From the NCBI GenBank assembly GCA_028289375.1, contig JANQQK010000080.1, positions 1 through 64,000 of the forward strand: a stretch of DNA of 64,000 nucleotides, read 5' to 3'. Positions 4,964 through 22,492 of this stretch are shown piece after piece; positions within the stretch are counted from its first letter, which is position 1; each line of letters starts with the position of its first letter. The DNA is from Phycisphaerae bacterium. GTDB taxonomy: Bacteria; Planctomycetota; Phycisphaerae; UBA1845. The notes below the pieces were generated by a model that did no database searches, was not told the DNA's origin, and worked only from the letters and a program-made list of their open reading frames with translations. Both the position numbers and the translations under genes were made by a program.

Positions 4964-5692
4964 ATGATCAGCACGGAATCTGTCGCCACCACTGCAACCT
5001 CCCGGGCTCGCCGATCCATCCTCGTCGTTGAAGACGAACAGGATTTGGCCGATCTGATCTGCTTCAACCTGGATCGCGAGGGCTACAATTGTCGGCACGC
5101 CGCCGGCGGGGACGTGGCCCTGAAGTCCATCGAAGAAGATCGCCCCGACCTGATCCTCATGGACCGCATGCTGCCCGGGCTTTCGGGCGATGAGGTGGTC
5201 CGCCGCCTGAAGAAAGATGACGCGACGTCGTCGATTCCGATCGTGGTGCTCTCAGCCAAGGATGACGAATCGGATCAACTCGTCGGGTTCGCCCTCGGCG
5301 CCGATGACTACGTCACCAAGCCATGCTCGATCAAAGTGCTCATCGCACGGGTCAACGCCATCCTTCGACGATTTGAGAATGCTCCGGAAGAGGACGACGT
5401 GCTCTCGGCCGGCCCCATTCGTCTGCTGCCCGACCGACATCAGTTGTTCGCCAACGGGGAGCAGGTGGACGTGACGGCGATGGAGTTTCGCATCATCAAG
5501 GCGTTGATGATGGCCCGCGGACGGGTCATGAACCGATCGCAACTGATCGACGCCGCACTCGGCACGGGCGTTGCCGTCACCGACCGGACGATCGACGTGC
5601 ACATCACGGCTTTGCGCAAGAAGTTGGGCATGGCCTCGGGGTGGATTCAGACGGTTCGCGGCGTCGGATACACCTTCCGCCAACCACGATGA
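4964..5692 (+). CDS. phoB: Response regulator, OmpR/PhoB family
   Basis: The product has an N-terminal receiver domain with the acidic pair in VVEDEQD, the phosphoacceptor Asp in LILMDRMLPG and the conserved Lys in DDYVTKPCS, then an OmpR-type winged-helix DNA-binding domain ending in RGVGYTFRQ. The frame is open upstream to 4874, but the ATG at 4964 (MISTESV) gives a normal PhoB length (242 residues) and has AGGAC just upstream, so it is preferred. The next gene, 16 bp downstream, is a PhoR-type kinase. Because pit and DUF47 are adjacent and divergent, phosphate control is the best guess for its role; the sequence alone does not exclude another stimulus. Confidence 0.88.
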   Translation: MISTESVATTATSRARRSILVVEDEQDLADLICFNLDREGYNCRHAAGGDVALKSIEEDRPDLILMDRMLPGLSGDEVVRRLKKDDATSSIPIVVLSAKDDESDQLVGFALGADDYVTKPCSIKVLIARVNAILRRFENAPEEDDVLSAGPIRLLPDRHQLFANGEQVDVTAMEFRIIKALMMARGRVMNRSQLIDAALGTGVAVTDRTIDVHITALRKKLGMASGWIQTVRGVGYTFRQPR

Positions 5693-5708
5693 CACGGAGC
5701 CGCCGCTC

Positions 5709-7670
5709 GTGAAAGTCCGTCCGGGAAAGTTCTTCTGGAAGCTCTTTCTCGGGACCGCAGCGCTCGTTACCGTTGTCGTCGCCACCATCGTGGCGTTGAT
5801 CATTCTGGTCAACGATGATCTGCTCGCCGCCAAGACCGCCGATTCGCTCAAACGCTACGCCGAACTCTTCCGCCATCAGGTCGCCGGCAAACTCGACGCC
5901 GATCACGCGAACGATCTTCAGTCCTTCGTTTCATCAGAGGGAGACAATGGCGCGGAAGGCTATCGGATCACCGTTGTCACACGCGACGGTACGGTTTTGG
6001 CCGACTCATCAGCCCCGCCGTCCAGCATGGAAAACCACGCGACACGCCCTGAAATTCAGAGCGCGCTTGCGGATGGCTTTGGCGATTCGACGCGATTTTC
6101 CAACACCATCAATCGCCAGATGAAATACGTCGCGGTTCGCGTTGGTTCGGGCGAGAATCCGGAAGGCGTGGTGCGCGTTGCGATGCAGTACGGCACGTTT
6201 GTCGCCCAATCCAAGGATGCACGCCGCCTCGCCATGACGATTGCGCTCGTCGGCCTGCTCGCAGCCGCGGTTCTCGCGCTCGGACTTGCGCGTATCTGGT
6301 CAGGCCCCATCAGTCGCATCACCGCCATCGCCCGCGAGTTCAGCCACGGCCAACTCTCCGCTCAACTGCGAGTGGAAGGCTCCGACGAAATCACCCTCCT
6401 CGCCAAATCGCTCAACCGCATGCGCGACCGATTGGCCGCACATCTCGAGTCGCACTACCGGCAACGCCGAACCCTCGAATATCTGCTGACGCAATTGCAT
6501 GAAGGCGTCATCGTGGCCGACGCGGATGGGCGCATCATTTTGCTCAACCCGGCCGCCGCGAAACTCCTTGACGTTCCCGTGTCGATGACCGGCGGACGTG
6601 ACATCGAAGGCATCTCGGTCGAATCCTGCGTACCACAAGCCGAACTTCGCCACATGCTTGCCGTTCGTGACGTCAAGTCAGCGCACTCCAATGGTCACGG
6701 CACCGCCGACCTTGAACATGGCCTGCACACTGAACCATCCGTGCTGTTGGAGAATCGCATCACGCTCAAGCTCGCGACTGGAACGGTTTCCGTGCTCGCC
6801 CGCGCCTCCGACATTGTGCTGCCAGCCGCGACGGCTTCACTCACACGCATCACGGACTCCACGAAACCGCCCGCGGTCGATCGGACGATCGTCGGTCGGC
6901 TGCTCGTACTCACCGATATCACCGAGCTCTCGCAAGCCATGCGCATCAAGAGCGATTTCGTCGCCAATGCCTCGCACGAACTGCGGACGCCGCTCACAGC
7001 CATTCGTACGGGCGTCGAAACGCTCCTCTCGATCGACCCGGCTGAGGATGAATCGTCGGCGAAGCATCTGCTCGGTGTTGTCGATCGACACAGCGCACGA
7101 CTCGAAGCCATGGTTGATGATCTGCTTGAACTGTCGCGGCTGGAGTCCTCGGCCAATTCGGTCAGACCCAGCCAGGTGTTGCTTGTCGAGGTCCTGCGCG
7201 AGCTGCGTGATCGGTTCGCCAAGCCACTCGAAAGCAAGGGCATCAATCTCGAAACCACCACTGCCGACGATCAGCCGGTCACGGTCCCCAGTGCCCGACT
7301 CCTGCGTCTCGTGCTGAACAACCTCGTCGACAACGCCGTCAAGTTCACCGACCCCGGCGGGAACATTGGCGTCACGTTCGACCAGGACGAAAACGCCATC
7401 CGTTTCGCCGTCACCGATGACGGTTGCGGCATTCCGCCCAAGGAGCACGACCGCATCTTCGAACGTTTCTATCAAGTGGAGCGAGCACGTTCGGGAGCAG
7501 ACCGAGGGACGGGACTCGGACTTTCGATCGTGCGCCACGCCGTCGCGGCCATGAACGGATCGGTCCAACTCACCAGCGAGCCCGGTGAAGGCACCCGCAT
7601 CGCCATCGAGATTCCGTTGTCATCGACTGATAGGATGGCCGAGACCGTCGCCGAAGTCGGGCAGTCCTGA
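5709..7670 (+). CDS. phoR: Membrane sensor histidine kinase, PhoR-like
   Basis: I chose the GTG at 5709 (VKVRPGKFF); the frame is open further upstream, but an earlier start would overlap the response regulator. Domains in order: membrane segment at about residues 12-34, an extracytoplasmic sensor of about 130 residues, a second membrane segment at about 175-197, a HAMP domain, a PAS domain (ILLNPAAAKLLDV), then HisKA with SHELRTPLTAI (phosphoacceptor His near residue 422), and an HATPase_c domain with N-box VDNAVKF, DDGCGIPP and GTGLGLSIV. It would sense a signal at the membrane and phosphorylate the adjacent regulator. The pair resembles PhoR/PhoB in order and domain make-up. The PAS-to-HisKA linker is longer than usual (about 100 residues) and contains no known domain that I recognise. 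Confidence 0.88.
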   Translation: MKVRPGKFFWKLFLGTAALVTVVVATIVALIILVNDDLLAAKTADSLKRYAELFRHQVAGKLDADHANDLQSFVSSEGDNGAEGYRITVVTRDGTVLADSSAPPSSMENHATRPEIQSALADGFGDSTRFSNTINRQMKYVAVRVGSGENPEGVVRVAMQYGTFVAQSKDARRLAMTIALVGLLAAAVLALGLARIWSGPISRITAIAREFSHGQLSAQLRVEGSDEITLLAKSLNRMRDRLAAHLESHYRQRRTLEYLLTQLHEGVIVADADGRIILLNPAAAKLLDVPVSMTGGRDIEGISVESCVPQAELRHMLAVRDVKSAHSNGHGTADLEHGLHTEPSVLLENRITLKLATGTVSVLARASDIVLPAATASLTRITDSTKPPAVDRTIVGRLLVLTDITELSQAMRIKSDFVANASHELRTPLTAIRTGVETLLSIDPAEDESSAKHLLGVVDRHSARLEAMVDDLLELSRLESSANSVRPSQVLLVEVLRELRDRFAKPLESKGINLETTTADDQPVTVPSARLLRLVLNNLVDNAVKFTDPGGNIGVTFDQDENAIRFAVTDDGCGIPPKEHDRIFERFYQVERARSGADRGTGLGLSIVRHAVAAMNGSVQLTSEPGEGTRIAIEIPLSSTDRMAETVAEVGQS

Positions 7671-7714
7671 CGCGCGATTGCATTTTGACAGCCACGTCGA
7701 TACGCTCGAACACC

Positions 7715-10700
7715 ATGTCCGGTAAAGAGTTCGGGCGTTTTCTGATGTCGCCGATCCAACACATCATCGTCGCCGGCGTGCTTATCCTTGCGACGGCCAA
7801 CGTCACCACAGCCCGTCGCTACCCCCTGACCCACATGCCCGATCTGCACGGCAAAGTCATCCGCGACCTTGTGCAGGATACCGATGGACACATCTGGGTT
7901 GCAACCACAACAGGTTTGTGGCGATCCTCCGATCGGACGTTCAAGCCCGCATTCGAGCAAAGCCTTGGAAGTCGGCTGATCACGCGTCTGGCCATTGCAC
8001 GAGACGACCAGCTCTGGATCGGCACGATCGGCGACATCTTCCTGGTCGACACCCGCCGCGTGAAAATCGTTCGACAATTCTCCGATATTGGTCGACAGGC
8101 GGTGCGGAGCTTCGAATTACGTCCCGACGGTGAACTCTGGGTCGGCACCGAACGCGGCATCTACGTCGGCGACGGCAAAGGTCCATTCGAATTGCAAAAG
8201 GGCACTGACCGTTACCAGGTCAGCGCTCTGGCATTCGATGCGGATGGCACACTCTGGGGCGGATCAGGCCGGGCGCTGCTCAGAATCCGAGACGGCCAAA
8301 TCGAGGAACTGTTTCCCGACATCGTTCGTCCCGGTCGCATCGAACGCGTGATCACGACAAACGATGGCAGCGTCTGGTTCGGGTTGCGAAACCCTGGCGG
8401 TCTCTACCGGCTGCGTGAAGGGCAACTCAAGCGCTACACGTCGGACGACGGCATCCACAACGATGAGATCAATGAACTCATCGAAACCCCGAATGGCGAC
8501 ATCTGGATCGCCACGGAAGCCGGCGCCGTTCGTTGGGATGGCAACTCATTTACAACTGTCGACCAAACGTCCGGCTTGGAGAACAGTGACGTCCACGCCC
8601 TCCTCATCGACCACGAAGACCATGTCTGGATCGGCACATTCTACGGAGGCCTCTACCGGCTCAGTTCGATGGATGTGCTGCATTATCCGAACCCGCCGGG
8701 ACTTGCCCATCCTGTTGTCTCGGACATTGCTTTCGATGGTTCAGGGCAGCTCATCATCGCCTCATTCGCCGGCACCGCCACGCTCGACCCGGAAGTCGGC
8801 ACCATCATTCCCGCGTCTCCCGCGATGCCATCGGAGCAGGTATTTGCACTCCGAAATGGGCAGGTCTGGCTGCGCTGGTTCCATCGCTATGCCCCACTGG
8901 GTGACGATGTATTCAATACCAATGGTCTTCAGGTCAATTACGTCACTACCGCCCCGAGCGGAAACGCTCTTGTTGCCACGAAGAACGGCGCGTACGAACT
9001 GAACGCCGATGACGAAGTGGTGCGACGTCTCGAACTCATTGGGTTACCCGACAGAGCATGCAACATCATCCACTGCACGCAAGACGGCACGATCTACGTC
9101 GGTACCAGATCAGGTTTGCATCGCTGCACCAACAACCGATGCGAAACCATTTTCGATGAATGCCAAGTACTCTCCATGTTCTTGGAGTCACATCACCACC
9201 TTCTGCTGGGTACGAATGAAGGGCTGCTGGAATATCGATCGGGCACCATCAGCCGATACCCGCCCCATGTCGTCAATCGAAAGGCCATGCGTAAAATCGT
9301 CAAGGATCGCAGAGGGCGATACTGGATCGCCGGTGAGCGTGGCCTGTTTCGTCTTGAAAACAACGAGCTGACACTCTTCACGCACGAGGACGGATTACCC
9401 TCTTCCGATGTGAAAGGCGTCGCCATCAGTCCCGCTGGAACTCTTTGGCTTGGAACCACGTCTGGTATCGCCAGCATCAGACCAGAGCAACTCTCGGAAC
9501 TTCAGCCAAACAAGCCGCAGCTCGACATCAAGCATGTGATCGCTGGCGGACGCGCATTGACACCGACCGAGCTCCCTGCAAACCTGAGCATTGTTGGCGA
9601 GCAGATCGAATTCGAGATGGAGTGCGTCGGTTGGCGATCATGCGAGGACTTTCGGTTTCAGCACAACGTCGAAGGGCTGACTGACTTTTGGTCGCCCCCG
9701 ACCGATCAGACGTCAATTCGATTCGATAGTCTGCTGCCCGGAAAATATGTCTTCAAGGCCCGCGCCGTTGATGCATATGGCAACGTCGGCGGAAGTGCTC
9801 GCGACATTCCCTTCACCATCGTCGACGCCTCGTCTCCCAACAAGACCGTCGTCATCACGTGCGTTCTCCTGTGCGTAGCAGCCGTCCTCTTCGTCTGGTG
9901 GCGACGGGTGCTGGATCAACGGTCTGCGGTGAGGGCGGCCAAGGAGAAGTTCGTCAGCGATGAGCAGTTCCGATTCGTCTTCGACAGTGGCCCGATCGGC
10001 ATGGCGCTCGTCAACTTGGATCATCAGTTCATCAAGGTGAACAGAGCATATACCGAGATCGTTGGATACACCGAAGAAGAACTTCGCAGCAAGACTTTCT
10101 ACGACATCACGCATCCCGACGATCTGAAGCGAAACATTGAGATCGTTAGCCCGCTGTTCGAGGGCAACGCGCGTACGGAAGTCTTCGAAAAGCGATACGT
10201 CACCAAAGAAGGACAACCCAAGTGGGTCAGTATCCGCACAACCGTTGTGCATGATGAGTCAGACAAGCCAGTCTTCTGCGTGGCCATGATCGAGGACATC
10301 GACGAGAAGCGCACGGCAGAAATCGAGCGAGAAAACAGCGAACGGCGACTCCGAACCATTATCAACACCGTTCCGTCGATGATTTATGTCAAGAACGCCG
10401 AAGGCCGATTTCTTGCCGCTAACGATGCCACCGCCCAGTGCCTCGGACGCACGGTCGAGCAGGTCGTCGGAGAGCTTCACATTGACCTTCACTCCGACCC
10501 GGAAGAAGTCAAGGTGATGCTGGAGGAAGATCGAAAAGTACTCCAGACAGGCGAGCAGTTTTTCTCCGCACAGGACAGCTTCCACGACGCCCATGGCAGC
10601 ATTCGTTGGCTGCAGACCATCAAAGTCCCTTATCACGACGGAGGATTCGGCGAACCGGCCGTTCTCGGCATTTCCATGGACGTGACCGAACTCCGCGAAG

Positions 10701-12886
10701 CCGAGGCCGCGCTGCGAGACACGAACCTCCGATTCACGCAAATCAGCGAAAACCTTGACGACATCTTCTGGTATGGCGACGCCGCCGATCCGGAGTCCTT
10801 TCGGGCGGTCTACGTTAGCCCTGCTTACGAGAAGATCTTCCAGAGACCCGTCCAGGATCTATTTGACGACGCGTTCGCCTGGCTTCGGGCCGTACATGAT
10901 GATGACCGTGACCGGGTCGCCGCATCATTCACCAAGTTCATCCGCGGCGAAGGAGAATTCGACGAAGAGTATCGGATTCTCAGGCCCGATGGGACTCAGC
11001 GAAACATCGCCGTTCGCGGAACACGCATCGTGGATAAGGAACTTGGCATCGTACGTGTCGGCGGCATCACACGCGACATCACACACCGCAAATCTGCTGA
11101 CGCAGAGATCCAACGCGCGCACGACGAGTTGGCGAGAAACGTCGCCGCACTCCGCGAAACCAACCTGCGTTTCAGCCAAATGTGCGAAACGATCGACGAC
11201 ATCATCTGGTATGGCGACGCAGCAGAACCCGACCACTTTGAGCTTGCGTATGTCAGTCCATCATTCGAGAGGATCTTTCAGCGATCAGTCGAAGAATTTT
11301 ATCAGGAACCATACCTCTGGCTTCATGTCACGCACGACGATGACAAGGAACGAATGGCACGGGCATTCCGCAGCTTCATACACGGCGAGCGGAATTTTGA
11401 CGAAGAGCACCGAATCATTCGGCCCGACGGAACCCAGCGGATCATCGCCGTTCGCGGGACGCGCATTGAAGATAAGGAGCATGGCGTATTGCGTGTGGGC
11501 GGCGTTGGACGTGACGTCACTTTCCGCAAAGCTGATGAAGACGAGATCCGACGAGCCCACAATTCATTGGCGGAAACCGTTGCCGACCTCCGCGAGACCA
11601 ATCTGAGGTTCCTGCAGGTTTCAGAGAGCATTGACGACATCTTCTGGTTGGCTGATGCGGAGAACCCCCAAGACTACCGTATTCTCTACATCAACCCCGC
11701 GTTCGAACGCATCTTGGGCCTCTCTACGACAAGCCTTTATGAAGATCCCTACGCGTGGGCCAAGGTCATCCCGGAAGACGATCGAGAACGCGTTGTCAGC
11801 ACATTTCAGCGGTTTCTGCGAGGAGAAGACTCTTTCGATATTGAGTGGCGTATCATTCGGCCGGATGGCCACGAGCGATTTCTGTCATGCCGTGCCGAGT
11901 TGATACGCGACGAGAACAATCGCGTAATTCGCGCAGCCGGCATTGTGAGCGATATCACGGCATGGAAAGAAGTCGAGACAGAAATCCGTCGGGCGCGGGA
12001 TGAACTCGCCGATCGCGTTGCCGCCCGAACCGCCGATCTCCAGCAAGCCAATCAGAAACTCCAAAAGGAGATCGCCGAACGTCGCCTCGCAGAGGAAAAA
12101 GCAGCCAAACGTCGCGACGCCCTGGCCCACGTTTCGCGACTGTCGCTCATGGGCGAGATGGCATCCGGACTTGCCCACGAACTGAATCAACCGCTGACCG
12201 CCATCATCAATTACGCCCAAGGTTGCGTCCGCATGCTCCAGCAGCAGGCCCACGACAAGTCCGCGCTCGAACATGCCATGACCCAAGCCGCCCAACAGGC
12301 CACCCGCGCCGGCGAGATCATCACACGCATGCGTGACTTCGCCAAAGCGGACCCCACGCACCGAATCCACACCACCATCAACACGGCGATCACCAACGCC
12401 ATCGACTTCACCAAGTTTGACCTCGACAAACGCAGCATCAGCCTCGAACGCCGCCTTGCGGACGACCTGCCGAACGTGTTTATCGACAGCGTCCAGATCG
12501 AACAGGTCGTGCTCAATCTCATCCGCAACGCCGCCGACGCCCTCGCCGACGTCCACCTCCAGCAGCGTCGCATCCTCGTCACATCCACCAGGTCTGACGA
12601 ACATGGTGTCCTTGTCACCGTCGCCGACAATGGCCCCGGCGTTGCGCAAGAAGCCCAGGACCGCCTGTTCCACCCCTTCTTCACCACCAAGCCCGATGGC
12701 ATGGGGCTTGGATTGTCCATCAGCCAATCCATCGTCGAAACACACGGAGGTCGCATGTGGCATCGCTCTTCGGGCGATGGCTGGACACTGTTCAGTTTCA
12801 CCATCCCTCCCCCCCCGCAAGAGACCGTCGCCTCGACCTCAAGACCCTCACAAACAGCGGATCAAACCCCCTGCGGCGACTCGTGA
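7715..12886 (+). CDS. Giant propeller / multi-PAS sensor histidine kinase
   Basis: This protein of about 1,720 residues starts with a signal-like segment (about residues 11-33), followed by about 14 Reg_prop-type beta-propeller blades with the repeated IWIGT/LWVGT pattern and a Y_Y_Y-type domain ending near residue 700. A membrane segment lies at about 710-728. The cytoplasmic part has five PAS domains; the last three (from about residues 1005, 1148 and 1293) are near copies of one another, each starting with TNLRF and containing DDIFWYGDA or a variant. A coiled coil, HisKA with GLAHELNQPLTAI (His near 1488) and HATPase_c with GMGLGLSIS follow. There is no receiver domain. The family usually senses extracellular polysaccharide products, but no response regulator lies next to it. 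The start could be the ATG at 7715 or 7745, or TTG at 7685. Confidence 0.87.
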   Translation: MSGKEFGRFLMSPIQHIIVAGVLILATANVTTARRYPLTHMPDLHGKVIRDLVQDTDGHIWVATTTGLWRSSDRTFKPAFEQSLGSRLITRLAIARDDQLWIGTIGDIFLVDTRRVKIVRQFSDIGRQAVRSFELRPDGELWVGTERGIYVGDGKGPFELQKGTDRYQVSALAFDADGTLWGGSGRALLRIRDGQIEELFPDIVRPGRIERVITTNDGSVWFGLRNPGGLYRLREGQLKRYTSDDGIHNDEINELIETPNGDIWIATEAGAVRWDGNSFTTVDQTSGLENSDVHALLIDHEDHVWIGTFYGGLYRLSSMDVLHYPNPPGLAHPVVSDIAFDGSGQLIIASFAGTATLDPEVGTIIPASPAMPSEQVFALRNGQVWLRWFHRYAPLGDDVFNTNGLQVNYVTTAPSGNALVATKNGAYELNADDEVVRRLELIGLPDRACNIIHCTQDGTIYVGTRSGLHRCTNNRCETIFDECQVLSMFLESHHHLLLGTNEGLLEYRSGTISRYPPHVVNRKAMRKIVKDRRGRYWIAGERGLFRLENNELTLFTHEDGLPSSDVKGVAISPAGTLWLGTTSGIASIRPEQLSELQPNKPQLDIKHVIAGGRALTPTELPANLSIVGEQIEFEMECVGWRSCEDFRFQHNVEGLTDFWSPPTDQTSIRFDSLLPGKYVFKARAVDAYGNVGGSARDIPFTIVDASSPNKTVVITCVLLCVAAVLFVWWRRVLDQRSAVRAAKEKFVSDEQFRFVFDSGPIGMALVNLDHQFIKVNRAYTEIVGYTEEELRSKTFYDITHPDDLKRNIEIVSPLFEGNARTEVFEKRYVTKEGQPKWVSIRTTVVHDESDKPVFCVAMIEDIDEKRTAEIERENSERRLRTIINTVPSMIYVKNAEGRFLAANDATAQCLGRTVEQVVGELHIDLHSDPEEVKVMLEEDRKVLQTGEQFFSAQDSFHDAHGSIRWLQTIKVPYHDGGFGEPAVLGISMDVTELREAEAALRDTNLRFTQISENLDDIFWYGDAADPESFRAVYVSPAYEKIFQRPVQDLFDDAFAWLRAVHDDDRDRVAASFTKFIRGEGEFDEEYRILRPDGTQRNIAVRGTRIVDKELGIVRVGGITRDITHRKSADAEIQRAHDELARNVAALRETNLRFSQMCETIDDIIWYGDAAEPDHFELAYVSPSFERIFQRSVEEFYQEPYLWLHVTHDDDKERMARAFRSFIHGERNFDEEHRIIRPDGTQRIIAVRGTRIEDKEHGVLRVGGVGRDVTFRKADEDEIRRAHNSLAETVADLRETNLRFLQVSESIDDIFWLADAENPQDYRILYINPAFERILGLSTTSLYEDPYAWAKVIPEDDRERVVSTFQRFLRGEDSFDIEWRIIRPDGHERFLSCRAELIRDENNRVIRAAGIVSDITAWKEVETEIRRARDELADRVAARTADLQQANQKLQKEIAERRLAEEKAAKRRDALAHVSRLSLMGEMASGLAHELNQPLTAIINYAQGCVRMLQQQAHDKSALEHAMTQAAQQATRAGEIITRMRDFAKADPTHRIHTTINTAITNAIDFTKFDLDKRSISLERRLADDLPNVFIDSVQIEQVVLNLIRNAADALADVHLQQRRILVTSTRSDEHGVLVTVADNGPGVAQEAQDRLFHPFFTTKPDGMGLGLSISQSIVETHGGRMWHRSSGDGWTLFSFTIPPPPQETVASTSRPSQTADQTPCGDS

Positions 12887-16664: not shown

Positions 16665-16693
16665 CCGATAGGCATTGACCAAATGGGATTCAA
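16665..16693 (-). promoter_or_regulatory. Possible promoter for proS
   Basis: On the minus strand TTGAAT (16693-16688) and TATCGG (16670-16665) are separated by 17 bp and lie about 115 bp upstream of the proS start, partly inside the stop region of the NYN gene. The match is weak in the -10 element, so this is only a candidate. Confidence 0.3.
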
Positions 16694-17283
16694 TTCCTCC
16701 AGACTTCAGCAAGAGGACGCGGGAGCTTCACGTCGAAGGCAGCAAGGTCATACTCAAGATCAAGCAGGTCCGCACCGAGGCTTGCGAGTTGAACAAGATC
16801 TGGCGACATTCGTTCGCGAAACCCAACAACAACAACCTGCACGCCCATCGCCAGTAACTGACTCAAGTGGTGAGCATAACCGTGATCATCTGAGACCAAG
16901 ACCACACGAAGCGAACGGGATGCTGATTCACTTTCGAGCAGAGCTTGCATCCTCCACTTGATAAACTCGTCAACAGGATCAGTCCCCGTGTCGTCGAGCA
17001 GGAACGCAGGCATAGGTTCTACGCGAAAGCCAGTCTTCGTCACGAATCGATAAAAGGGACTGACCCGATCCAAGTCCCGTCGGAACGTCAATGGGTTGAG
17101 CACGAAATGCTGCTCGTCCGCACCGAACCAGCACTCAAAGGCATCGTACACACGGTCCCAACGAGGTCGCTCATGTGGCTTGGGTCTTCGGCGGAGAATC
17201 TGCAGGCCCAATTCGCCGTCAATATTGGGGGCATCGATGAATACGTAGCAGTTATCAGTGGGCACAATTCGGCTCTGAATCAT
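16690..17283 (-). CDS. NYN-domain (PIN-fold) putative ribonuclease
   Basis: The 197-residue protein fits the NYN/LabA-type PIN fold. An N-terminal strand ends in FIDAPNIDG (Asp17, Asn20), a central acidic helix reads DDTGTDPVDEFIKW (Asp102, Asp105), and a third strand gives VVLVSDDHGYAHHL (Asp132, Asp133) followed by a GVQVVVVGF strand. These acidic residues are placed as in metal-dependent NYN nucleases. The start at 17283 (MIQSRIV) has a good AGGAG 10 bases upstream; an upstream ATG in frame has none. It lies 94 bp downstream of a second, related protein on the same strand, with a hairpin between them. Base composition is more A+T-rich than the surrounding genes. The substrate and biological role are not known. 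Confidence 0.75.
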   Translation of the reverse strand: MIQSRIVPTDNCYVFIDAPNIDGELGLQILRRRPKPHERPRWDRVYDAFECWFGADEQHFVLNPLTFRRDLDRVSPFYRFVTKTGFRVEPMPAFLLDDTGTDPVDEFIKWRMQALLESESASRSLRVVLVSDDHGYAHHLSQLLAMGVQVVVVGFRERMSPDLVQLASLGADLLDLEYDLAAFDVKLPRPLAEVWRN

Positions 17284-17334
17284 TCTATAATCTCCTAAGA
17301 AATTGAAACTATAAGGCACACTAAACTAGCACTG

Positions 17335-17365
17335 ATAAAAGGCTTCCGATCCTTAGGATTCGGAA
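17335..17365 (-). terminator. Terminator- or attenuator-like hairpin between the two NYN genes
   Basis: On the minus strand TTCCGAATCC and GGATCGGAA form a 9-bp stem with one bulged base and a TAA loop, followed by GCC and TTTTAT. It lies in the 94-bp gap after the first NYN gene and before the second, so it could reduce read-through from the shared promoter. A TATAGT hexamer just after it might give the second gene its own weak promoter. Confidence 0.55.
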
Positions 17366-17377
17366 CTTCATAAAAAA

Positions 17378-18001
17378 CTAAAGCTGGATACTCCCGAGGC
17401 CACCTCCTTCCTTCTGATTCCTTTCAGGAGCTAAACTCAGATCCACGCCGAGAATACTCTCTGCGAAATCACTCAGGTCAATAAAACGAATGGGGGACTC
17501 TTCGCTAAATAACCCAACTCTGTTCCAACGCTCTTCCATTCCTGAACGGAAAAATGCTATAGAAACCCTCCCCCCCCGGTTCTGCACATAATCGAGGAGA
17601 GGGTAATATAAGTCGAAGGCGTCACTTACAACAACGAGAGGAGGGGGAGTCTCCTGACGTTGAACAAGCAAACCAGCAAGATACGTAATGCGCGTCGAGA
17701 GGCGTTGGTACTGAACCGATTCCAGCCGATTTGGTGTGACGAATGCATCGCGGTAGTCGGTTTCGTCCACGGTAAACTGAAGAACGCTGGCAAGGAAGTC
17801 ACAGAACTTTCGTTGGCCATCATGCTCCTTATTAATGGAAACGAATGCGATTTTCTGCCCGAATGTGCCACGATTGGCTTGCACCAACGCTTCATCAAGC
17901 ATGCGATAATCAATCGCCGCCTGCCGCGACAACTTCTTATCAGACAACGACTTATGGAAATCAAATAAGGGGGTTGCGTCAACTGCGAGAATTGCACCCA
18001 T
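17378..18001 (-). CDS. NYN-like (PIN-fold) protein with altered active site
   Basis: The 207-residue protein shares its layout with the next gene: a first strand ILAVDATPLFDF (Asp8), a middle helix, the strand LVVVSDAFDLYYPLLDYV (Asp127), then GGRVSIAFFRSGM and a final DLSDF. This mirrors the SDD...GVQVVVVGFRERM...DLLDLEYDL order of the neighbour, so I infer a common NYN-type fold. The usual Asn after the first Asp is missing, and the middle acidic residues are replaced (RLSTRITYLAG), so catalysis is doubtful. The ATG at 18001 has GGAGG seven bases upstream and is preferred over the upstream frame extension. A run of eight G on the coding strand covers codons 142-145. A strong sigma-70-like promoter lies about 60 bp upstream. 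I know no named family for it. Confidence 0.65.
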   Translation of the reverse strand: MGAILAVDATPLFDFHKSLSDKKLSRQAAIDYRMLDEALVQANRGTFGQKIAFVSINKEHDGQRKFCDFLASVLQFTVDETDYRDAFVTPNRLESVQYQRLSTRITYLAGLLVQRQETPPPLVVVSDAFDLYYPLLDYVQNRGGRVSIAFFRSGMEERWNRVGLFSEESPIRFIDLSDFAESILGVDLSLAPERNQKEGGGLGSIQL

Positions 18002-18058
18002 ACGGATCCTCCCTTTCCATAAAAGCATCGACATACGCCGACGCAATAAACACCTTTG

Positions 18059-18087
18059 AATGTACACGATGATAGGACGAAAGTCAA
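18059..18087 (-). promoter_or_regulatory. Sigma-70-type promoter of the NYN gene pair
   Basis: On the minus strand TTGACT (18087-18082) and TACATT (18064-18059) are separated by exactly 17 bp. This is the best housekeeping-type promoter match seen in the window. Transcription would begin near 18052, leaving a leader of about 50 bases that includes the GGAGG site at the NYN-like gene start. Confidence 0.7.
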
Positions 18088-19914: not shown

Positions 19915-21171
19915 ATGACACAGCAACCGGACACATCGACCCACCAACCGCCAACACCTACACCGCGCGTCTCGCGGCGATTCAAACTCGTCGCCCTCGC
20001 CACGCTCACCGTCGTCACGCTGCTCGTGGCCGAATTCGCCCTGCGCGTCGCCGGCATCCACGATGGGGGCATCATCCTCCAGTCCGACCCTTGGACCGGC
20101 GTCCGCCACATCCCGAACCGCACGCTCGTTCAGGATGCGGAAGGCTTCGGCATCGTCGAGATCAACAACCTTGGACTTCGCGATCACGACACCACCATTG
20201 AAAAACCCGCGGATACCTACCGCATCGCGCTGGTCGGCGATTCCTACATCGAAGCCGCCCAGGTCGCCCTCGAGAACGCCGTAAGCGAGAAACTCGAAGC
20301 ACATCTCAACCGATCAACTTCCAAGACGCAGGTCGAAGTCCTCAACTTTGGCGTCTCCGGATTCTCCACCGCCCAGGAATACCTCAACATCAAACACCAC
20401 ATCCTCCCCTTCAAGCCCGACCTCATCCTCCTCTCCATGACCGTCACCAACGACATCCGCGACAACCACCCCGACCTTTCGCGCACCCCACGCCCCGTCT
20501 ATCACCTCACCAATGACGAGGAACTCGAACTCGACACGTCCTTTCGGCAACCAACCCACGCCCTACTCCACGTGCGCACCCATTGGCCTCGCCTTTGGCG
20601 CAGCGTGAGTTGGATCGCATCCAACAGCCGACTCGCCGGTCTTGCCATCGAAGCCGCCCGCAACATCTCCCAGCACAAACGCCACCGTCCACAACCAACC
20701 GCGCCCGGCGACATCCCGCCCGACATCCTCAGCGACCTGACCGTCTACAAACCCGACGCGCCCGCCCCATGGGACGACGCCTGGACCATCACCGAAAAAC
20801 TACTCCTCAAAACGCGCGACCTTTGTCGCAACCACGACTTCGACCTCCTCGTCATCATCCAGGCCACCGCCCGCCAGATCGATCCGAACACCCGCTCCGA
20901 ATTCGCCACCCACCACCCCGAATTCGATCTCGACTACCCCGAACGCCGAATCACCGCGTTCTGTGCCTCGCACGACATCCAGTCCCTCGCCCTCAGCCCC
21001 ACCTTTCGGAAACACCGCCAATCCACCGGTCAGCATCTCCACGGATTCGGTCAAACGCTCGGTCAAGGCCACTGGAACGACGCAGGCCACGCCCTCGCCG
21101 CCAAGATCATTCACGTCTACCTCAATACCAGCGAGATCCTCCCTGATACGCTGCGCACCGCGCCAGACTGA
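19915..21171 (+). CDS. SGNH/GDSL-type hydrolase, membrane-anchored (copy 1)
   Basis: The 418-residue product has a short Pro/Thr-rich N-terminus, one membrane segment (about residues 27-47), and an extracytoplasmic SGNH hydrolase domain. Block I is VGDSYIE with the nucleophile Ser near residue 107, block II is NFGVSGFST, block III is TVTNDIRDN, and the last block GHWNDAGH supplies the catalytic His. Such proteins act as esterases or acyl-transferases on sugars or lipids; AlgX/AlgJ are distant relatives. The gene after it is a clear paralogue in the same orientation, 79 bp downstream. The natural substrate cannot be told from the sequence. Confidence 0.82.
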   Translation: MTQQPDTSTHQPPTPTPRVSRRFKLVALATLTVVTLLVAEFALRVAGIHDGGIILQSDPWTGVRHIPNRTLVQDAEGFGIVEINNLGLRDHDTTIEKPADTYRIALVGDSYIEAAQVALENAVSEKLEAHLNRSTSKTQVEVLNFGVSGFSTAQEYLNIKHHILPFKPDLILLSMTVTNDIRDNHPDLSRTPRPVYHLTNDEELELDTSFRQPTHALLHVRTHWPRLWRSVSWIASNSRLAGLAIEAARNISQHKRHRPQPTAPGDIPPDILSDLTVYKPDAPAPWDDAWTITEKLLLKTRDLCRNHDFDLLVIIQATARQIDPNTRSEFATHHPEFDLDYPERRITAFCASHDIQSLALSPTFRKHRQSTGQHLHGFGQTLGQGHWNDAGHALAAKIIHVYLNTSEILPDTLRTAPD

Positions 21172-21250: not shown

Positions 21251-22492
21251 ATGGCCGAAAAACCAACCATCACCGACGCCGAAACACCAGAAGCGCCCGA
21301 TCGCCCCCGCTTCAGCTGGAAGTTTCGCCTGCTCGCACTGACCATGCTGTTGGGCCTGACCCTCATCACCGCCGAACTCGCCCTCCGCATCCTCGGCATC
21401 CAGAAGGGCGGCATCATTGTCATGTCCGACCCCCACACCGGCTATACCCACATCCCCAACCGCACGCTCGTCCATGAATCTGAGGGTTACTCCGTCGTCC
21501 ACATCAATTCCCTCGGCTTCCGCGACCACGAAACCACCCTCGAAAAACCACCCGGCACCTTCCGCATCGCCATCCTCGGCGACTCCTACGTTGAAGCTCG
21601 CCAGGTCGCCCTCGAAAACGCCGTCAGCGAACAGCTCGAATCCCTGCTCAACCGATCCGACACCAATACCCGATACGAAGTCCTCAACTTCGGCATGAAT
21701 GGCTACTCCACCGCCCAGGAACGCCAACGCCTCGAACATTTCGTCATGCCCTTCGACCCCGACCTTGTCATCCTCTCCATTTGCACCACCAACGACGTTC
21801 GCGACAACCACCCCAAACTCACGAACATCGCACGCCCCTTCTTCCTGCCCGACGACCAAGGCCAATTCACACTCGACACCCGCTTCCGCGAACTGTCCGG
21901 CGGACGACGGGACCTCCGCGCACCCGACAGCCGATTCTGGCGCATCGCCACCTGGACCACCTCCAACGTCCGCCTCGCCGGCATCGCCATCGAAGCCGTC
22001 CGCACCTTCACTCAGCGCAAACGACACACCGCCCCCATCCCCGAACTCGCCGACATCTACACCGGCTCCGAGCGCGACCTCAACATCTACAACCCAAACC
22101 CACCCGAAGTCTGGCAACACGCCTGGCTCATCACCCAGTTCATCCTCGACGACATGAACACCCGCTGCCGACTTCGCGATATCCCCTTCGTCGCCGTCAT
22201 CCAGGGCAGCAGCCAACAGGTCGACCCCGCCGCCCGCGAAACCTTCACCCGCCTCCGCCCCGAACTCGATGTCGACCACCCCGAAAAACGCCTCATCGCG
22301 TTCTTCACAGCCAAGGACATCACCCACTTGCCCTTGAGCCAACCCTTCCTCGAGCACTACAAGAAAACAGGCCAACACCTCCACGGTTTCGGCAACCGCC
22401 CCGGCATTGGCCATTGGAATGAAAAGGGCCACGAACGCGCGGCCCAGATCATCCATCAATTCCTCGTCGATCAGAACCTGCTCGACGATTAG
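21251..22492 (+). CDS. SGNH/GDSL-type hydrolase, membrane-anchored (copy 2)
   Basis: This 413-residue protein is a close paralogue of the preceding gene: the same anchor (LLALTMLLGLTLITAELALR), LGDSYVEARQVALENAVSE around the nucleophile Ser near residue 110, NFGMNGYSTAQE, ICTTNDVRDNHP and GIGHWNEKGHERAAQ. Block II has Asn in place of the Ser found in copy 1 (GMNGYS versus GVSGFS), and the final block has Glu instead of Asp before Lys-Gly-His. Both keep the catalytic Ser and His. The two copies look like an old tandem duplication that has diverged mostly in the central region. They probably act in the same pathway on different substrates or at different steps. Confidence 0.82.
   Translation: MAEKPTITDAETPEAPDRPRFSWKFRLLALTMLLGLTLITAELALRILGIQKGGIIVMSDPHTGYTHIPNRTLVHESEGYSVVHINSLGFRDHETTLEKPPGTFRIAILGDSYVEARQVALENAVSEQLESLLNRSDTNTRYEVLNFGMNGYSTAQERQRLEHFVMPFDPDLVILSICTTNDVRDNHPKLTNIARPFFLPDDQGQFTLDTRFRELSGGRRDLRAPDSRFWRIATWTTSNVRLAGIAIEAVRTFTQRKRHTAPIPELADIYTGSERDLNIYNPNPPEVWQHAWLITQFILDDMNTRCRLRDIPFVAVIQGSSQQVDPAARETFTRLRPELDVDHPEKRLIAFFTAKDITHLPLSQPFLEHYKKTGQHLHGFGNRPGIGHWNEKGHERAAQIIHQFLVDQNLLDD

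Follow-up and report, generated by a model that had tools for sequence, protein, structure and literature searches.

Two adjacent genes, P0001 and P0002, lie in an A+T-rich segment of the 64-kb stretch of DNA analysed here (the window), which comes from the genome (5.0 Mb in 94 contigs) of a Phycisphaerae-type member of the Planctomycetota. They raise the question of whether the pair forms a two-component nuclease system, as the initial annotation had suggested, or whether two accessory genes of separate history have come to lie side by side. The answer depends on the predicted folds and catalytic residues of the two proteins, on the distribution and linkage of their families, and on the genes that surround their relatives.

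Gene arrangement and base composition

The two genes described by the initial annotation are real: they are co-directional open reading frames on the minus strand, each with its own Shine-Dalgarno-like sequence (Table 1), from which the start codons were assigned at 17283 for P0001 and at 18001 for P0002. Co-transcription of the two genes is possible because no terminator-like site was listed in the 94-bp gap between them. The near-consensus promoter that had been placed ahead of the pair did not stand up to scrutiny, as the sole site found (18087-18059) matches at 9/12 positions and shuffled sequence averages 1.4 such sites. The pair is flanked by proS (prolyl-tRNA synthetase) and an alginate-export porin gene.

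Table 1. Positions of the gene pair and associated sequence features in the window.
Feature	Position	Strand	Remark
P0001	16690..17283	-	NYN-domain protein, probable endoribonuclease; D18, D106, D134 and N21 intact
P0002	17378..18001	-	NYN-fold protein (predicted), unnamed Planctomycetota-only family; D8 kept, S102 and A128 at second and third sites
Shine-Dalgarno-like AGGAGA ahead of P0001	17291..17296	-	Read from sequence
Shine-Dalgarno-like GGGAGGA ahead of P0002	18007..18013	-	Read from sequence
P0001/P0002 intergenic gap, 94 bp	17284..17377	-	No terminator-like sites listed
Promoter-like TTGACT-17-TACATT, 9/12 match	18059..18087	-	Not above chance
A+T-rich island	16690..18087	.	Lowest-GC 1.4-kb stretch of window

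Two other features of the window were recorded. A very long hybrid sensor histidine kinase is encoded at 7685-12886, and its translation reads as a two-component-type propeller together with several PAS repeats and a kinase domain. At 19915-21171 and 21251-22492, two similar genes in tandem on the plus strand, each of about 415 codons, were read as SGNH-hydrolase-like; they are apparently a recent duplication.

The GC profile bears out the A+T-rich character that had been noted for the segment. The GC content of the 1400-bp stretch from 16701 is 0.498, the lowest in the 64-kb window (mean 0.593, sd 0.021). The neighbouring genes measured have GC3 values of 0.68-0.80, compared with 0.57 in P0001 and 0.51 in P0002. 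Among 376 other genomes of the class, P0001 has one relative in an order-mate and a weak 60-residue match, while P0002 has relatives in four order-mates and in one more distant genome. Because of the low GC3 and the near absence of both genes from these 376 genomes, segment 16690-18087 looks foreign, in agreement with the acquisition by transfer proposed earlier, and it lacks the ordinary GC and the conservation across Phycisphaerae that a housekeeping locus would show. The same-genus genome G294 contains neither P0001 nor P0002 and shows no synteny with the window to the left or right of proS; for this reason no insertion point could be defined for the island. There is no tRNA gene near the island, and there are no convincing flanking repeats.

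Predicted folds of P0001 and P0002

AlphaFold2 models were obtained for P0001 (m671223c3e300; pLDDT 79.4, pTM 0.79) and P0002 (m52b3d97ff491; pLDDT 76.7, pTM 0.76), and both have an NYN/PIN-like fold in these predictions, whose quality suffices for structural comparison. The best structural matches of the P0001 model were VPA0982, a bacterial NYN/LabA-type protein (PDB 2qip; Z 14.7), and the NYN domain of MARF1 (5yaa; Z 14.2), with the next rows at 6.7. The P0002 model gave the same two best matches (VPA0982, Z 16.0; MARF1, Z 13.8), followed by a drop to Z 9, and the rows at Z 8-9 are 5'-nucleases such as ExoIX, which have a related fold (VIA-align). The NYN/PIN fold that had been read into both proteins is thus reproduced by models matching VPA0982 and MARF1 at Z 13-16, and so is the final D-L element said to be common to them, which contains D176 in P0001 and D175 in P0002. 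As modelled, then, P0001 and P0002 carry distantly related NYN folds.

Catalytic residues and relatives of P0001

A comparison of P0001 with Pfam PF01936 gave 20.4 bits (E 7.7e-4), which misses the curated cut-off of 24.2 bits, while the profile of the P0001 family matches VPA0982 (2qip) at E 7.8e-11 and MARF1 at E 5e-4. Because the single-sequence score lies under the PF01936 cut-off, the assignment of P0001 to NYN proteins by sequence is significant at the level of the family profile only. The catalytic aspartates D92 and D115 of VPA0982 align to D106 and D134 of P0001. The first aspartate of P0001, D18 (with N21), is placed by where its motif falls, at the end of the first strand, a part of the protein that lies outside the printed VPA0982 alignment.

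The NYN protein of Bacteroides fragilis is a CRISPR-associated, Mn-dependent RNase in which D13, D118 and D143 are equivalent to MARF1 D358, D426 and D452 and to VPA0982 D14, D92 and D115, and the D13A substitution abolishes cleavage (PMC11346440). It resembles P0001 in its triad and in being a stand-alone bacterial NYN protein, but neither CRISPR nor any other defence genes adjoin the pair in the window. The MARF1 NYN domain (6fdl, 5yaa) is an active endoribonuclease (PMC6294520) that has its fold in common with both window proteins and its three-aspartate set in common with P0001; the window proteins differ from MARF1 in being small, stand-alone and bacterial, and in having no RRM or LOTUS domains. 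VPA0982 likewise resembles both proteins in fold and P0001 in its D14/D92/D115 triad, but differs from P0002, which has no equivalents of D92 and D115, and the sequence identity is only 14%. The likeliest activity of P0001 is metal-dependent endoribonucleolytic cleavage of single-stranded RNA by the triad D18-D106-D134.

P0001 belongs to a broad bacterial NYN family with the signature VDGENIDxTLGxIL...RPRW, which includes loci L006-L014 and an Actinomyces oris plasmid record, and it is 29-34% identical to the Planctomycetota members. It forms a divergent subgroup with its two closest relatives, in genomes G397 and G137, marked by the motifs DPVD and S[DH]DH[GV]Y; the broader family occurs in other Planctomycetota. 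The G397 relative matches the A. oris plasmid protein at 36%, and phage records yielded one distant match to P0001, at 37%.

P0002 and its degenerate catalytic centre

None of Pfam, NCBIfam, PADLOC and PHROGs gave a significant match to P0002, and a profile search of the PDB returned no NYN chain, so that the protein has no sequence match to an NYN model. When the families of P0002 and P0001 were compared profile against profile, a weak alignment was obtained, with a probability of 74%.

Two of the three catalytic aspartates are missing from P0002 when the triad is assigned from alignment and secondary structure, not from a superposition: D8 is present, while S102 and A128 occupy the second and third sites. 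A128 is placed at D134 of P0001 by the strand-to-helix spacing, which is equal in the two models (131 to 135 in P0001, 125 to 129 in P0002). Of the seven known members of the family, three (G045, G397 and G530) have Asp at position 102 and the remaining four have Ser or Ala there, while position 128 is Ala in P0002 and Ser in the other six, so that the canonical third aspartate is found in 0/7. D8 and D175 are invariant (7/7), as are G62, Q63, R158 and W159, and position 127 is Asp in four members and His in three.

Because most of the catalytic centre is lost, P0002 has most likely ceased to cleave RNA through the NYN mechanism and would instead bind RNA or a protein partner; a non-catalytic role is the likeliest one for this protein. 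Since D102 is kept in G045, G397 and G530, these family members may still bind one metal. The conserved aspartates could alternatively be taken to mean that P0002 remains a nuclease, active through a rearranged centre built from D8, D127, D175 and other residues. The invariance of D8 and D175, the acidic or histidine residue at position 127 and the weaker structural matches to 5'-nucleases such as ExoIX are consistent with this, but the canonical third aspartate is missing throughout the family and the second in 4/7 members, and the invariant G62, Q63, R158 and W159 appear unlike any known PIN/NYN centre. We regard a rearranged active centre as quite unlikely. A parallel to the predicted state of P0002 is the PIN domain of SMG5, which is related to the PIN nuclease of SMG6 but inactive (cited in PMC6294520). 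SMG5 has a PIN fold without catalytic residues, as P0002 appears to have, but it is a eukaryotic mRNA surveillance factor, and its likeness to P0002 is one of fold and lost residues.

Distribution and linkage of the two families

The new part of the finding is the unnamed P0002 family. Its other members were found in six genomes, all of them Planctomycetota: G392, G394, G397 and G405 belong to one family in the same order as the window genome, G530 is from elsewhere in the class and G045 is from another class. A scan of the genome-contig collection with the P0002 family produced no genomes beyond these six, and no family member was matched in viral contigs or in phage and plasmid records. An efflux-type protein at locus L003 that matched P0002 along 90 residues (E 2e-4) was dismissed as unrelated.

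The flanks read around the loci extended for about 6-20 kb and were shorter at contig ends. Within them, a P0001-type gene was found beside the P0002 relatives in 0/6 genomes, and a P0002-type gene at 0/12 of the P0001-type or distant NYN loci. There is thus no conserved two-gene NYN/NYN module at these loci, and the adjacency of P0001 and P0002 in the window is so far unique. The paired nuclease proposed in the initial annotation is not supported, in view both of this result and of the loss of two of the three catalytic aspartates from P0002. Genome G397 holds relatives of both families, and these are on different contigs.

These data bear directly on the idea that the two genes make up a two-component module, in which an active RNase, P0001, is restrained or targeted by its dead NYN partner, P0002, for anti-phage defence; a toxin-antitoxin-like pair and a nuclease/pseudo-nuclease heterodimer would both be forms of it. 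The arrangement of the genes, co-directional and with no terminator listed between them, argues for such a module, as do the occurrence of the fold once in an active and once in a degenerate form, the low GC of the acquired segment, the occurrence of relatives of both in G397, and the carriage of one P0002 relative as prophage cargo (see below). It is opposed by the absence of the pair from all of the other loci read and by the situation in G397, where the two genes are on separate contigs and the P0001 relative has a weakly ribbon-helix-helix-like gene ahead of it. On balance we consider the module unlikely. Partnership in trans is possible, given that both families occur in G397.

Apart from the G530 copy, the P0002-family members all lie between ordinary or housekeeping genes. 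At the G397 locus that contains the P0001 relative (L073, contig C40; 6185-6811), a 188-aa gene with a weak ribbon-helix-helix/NikA/TacA1-like N-terminus (5527-6093) is directly upstream, a layout that recalls antitoxin-toxin pairs; an RHH_1 match in L002 was weak and taken as chance. Around the P0001 relative of G137 (L020, 2849-8883) are genes for an EVE-domain protein with an HSDR_N-like tail, a DUF2779 protein and an HNH endonuclease, and this region looks variable and is possibly defence-related.

The lack of conserved context, the low GC and the singleton nature of the pair might also be expected of two unrelated passenger genes that are decaying and have no present function in the window genome. 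Both reading frames are intact, however, with clear ribosome-binding sites, and P0001 keeps all of its catalytic residues. In addition, a comparison of the G392 and G394 copies of the P0002 relative shows 39 synonymous changes and only 2 non-synonymous ones, which indicates that the order-level relative is a working protein under strong purifying selection. Decay of the two genes is therefore very unlikely.

Phage and defence context

The P0002 relative of G530 (L084, 6109-6720, minus strand) lies within prophage head genes, between a GpA-type terminase large subunit and a lambda-type portal. Next after the portal gene comes a capsid/protease gene, and further along lie replication genes and a gene for a likely tape-measure protein. 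Adjoining the P0002 relative, and likewise situated between the terminase and the portal, is a second cargo gene of this prophage (6971-7597, contig C58), whose product combines an acetyltransferase-like tail with an ESCO-type zinc finger. GC3 is 0.62-0.63 in both cargo genes compared with about 0.85 in the phage genes. Because of this placement among head genes, the G530 relative supports a mobile, phage-linked origin of the P0002 family. A recognisable prophage location was found for this one member of the seven, and the window copy does not lie inside a phage structural cluster.

Defence genes, which might be expected next to a defence system, do not adjoin the pair within the window. With respect to known anti-phage systems, the PADLOC match of the pair is a weak NYN hit (E 0.0065).

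Discussion

The explanation that we favour, with a probability of roughly 0.55, is that the A+T-rich island was acquired and carries two independently spreading accessory genes, one for a probable NYN endoribonuclease and one for a degenerate NYN-fold protein. P0001 would cut single-stranded RNA in a metal-dependent manner through D18-D106-D134, an activity that has been modelled or demonstrated for the VPA0982-type, MARF1 and Bacteroides NYN proteins. P0002 would have the same fold with an eroded centre, and would act by binding RNA or a partner protein. Each gene would have spread on its own, and the two would be neighbours here by chance, with the P0002 family acting as the cargo of at least one prophage. 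Because of this carriage, the likeliest selective reason for keeping such genes would be phage-host conflict, or the restraint of host or phage RNA, and the functions of the two genes would probably concern RNA and perhaps phage-host conflict. The prophage location of a single P0002-family member, the retention of D102 in three members and the presence of both families in G397 count against this explanation. A bolder version, in which a nuclease/pseudo-nuclease pair is spread by phages and P0002 regulates or targets P0001 in the phage-host conflicts of Planctomycetota, strikes us as improbable indeed.

Recognition is growing that NYN proteins serve as RNases in bacterial immunity and in RNA decay. 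If the two proteins of the window did act together, they would show the coupling of a nuclease with its dead relative. The P0002 family, with its predicted NYN fold and eroded centre, its purifying selection in at least one lineage and its one prophage-borne member, would parallel in bacteria the inactive PIN proteins exemplified by SMG5, and would be a candidate phage-encoded RNA-binding or nuclease-blocking factor.
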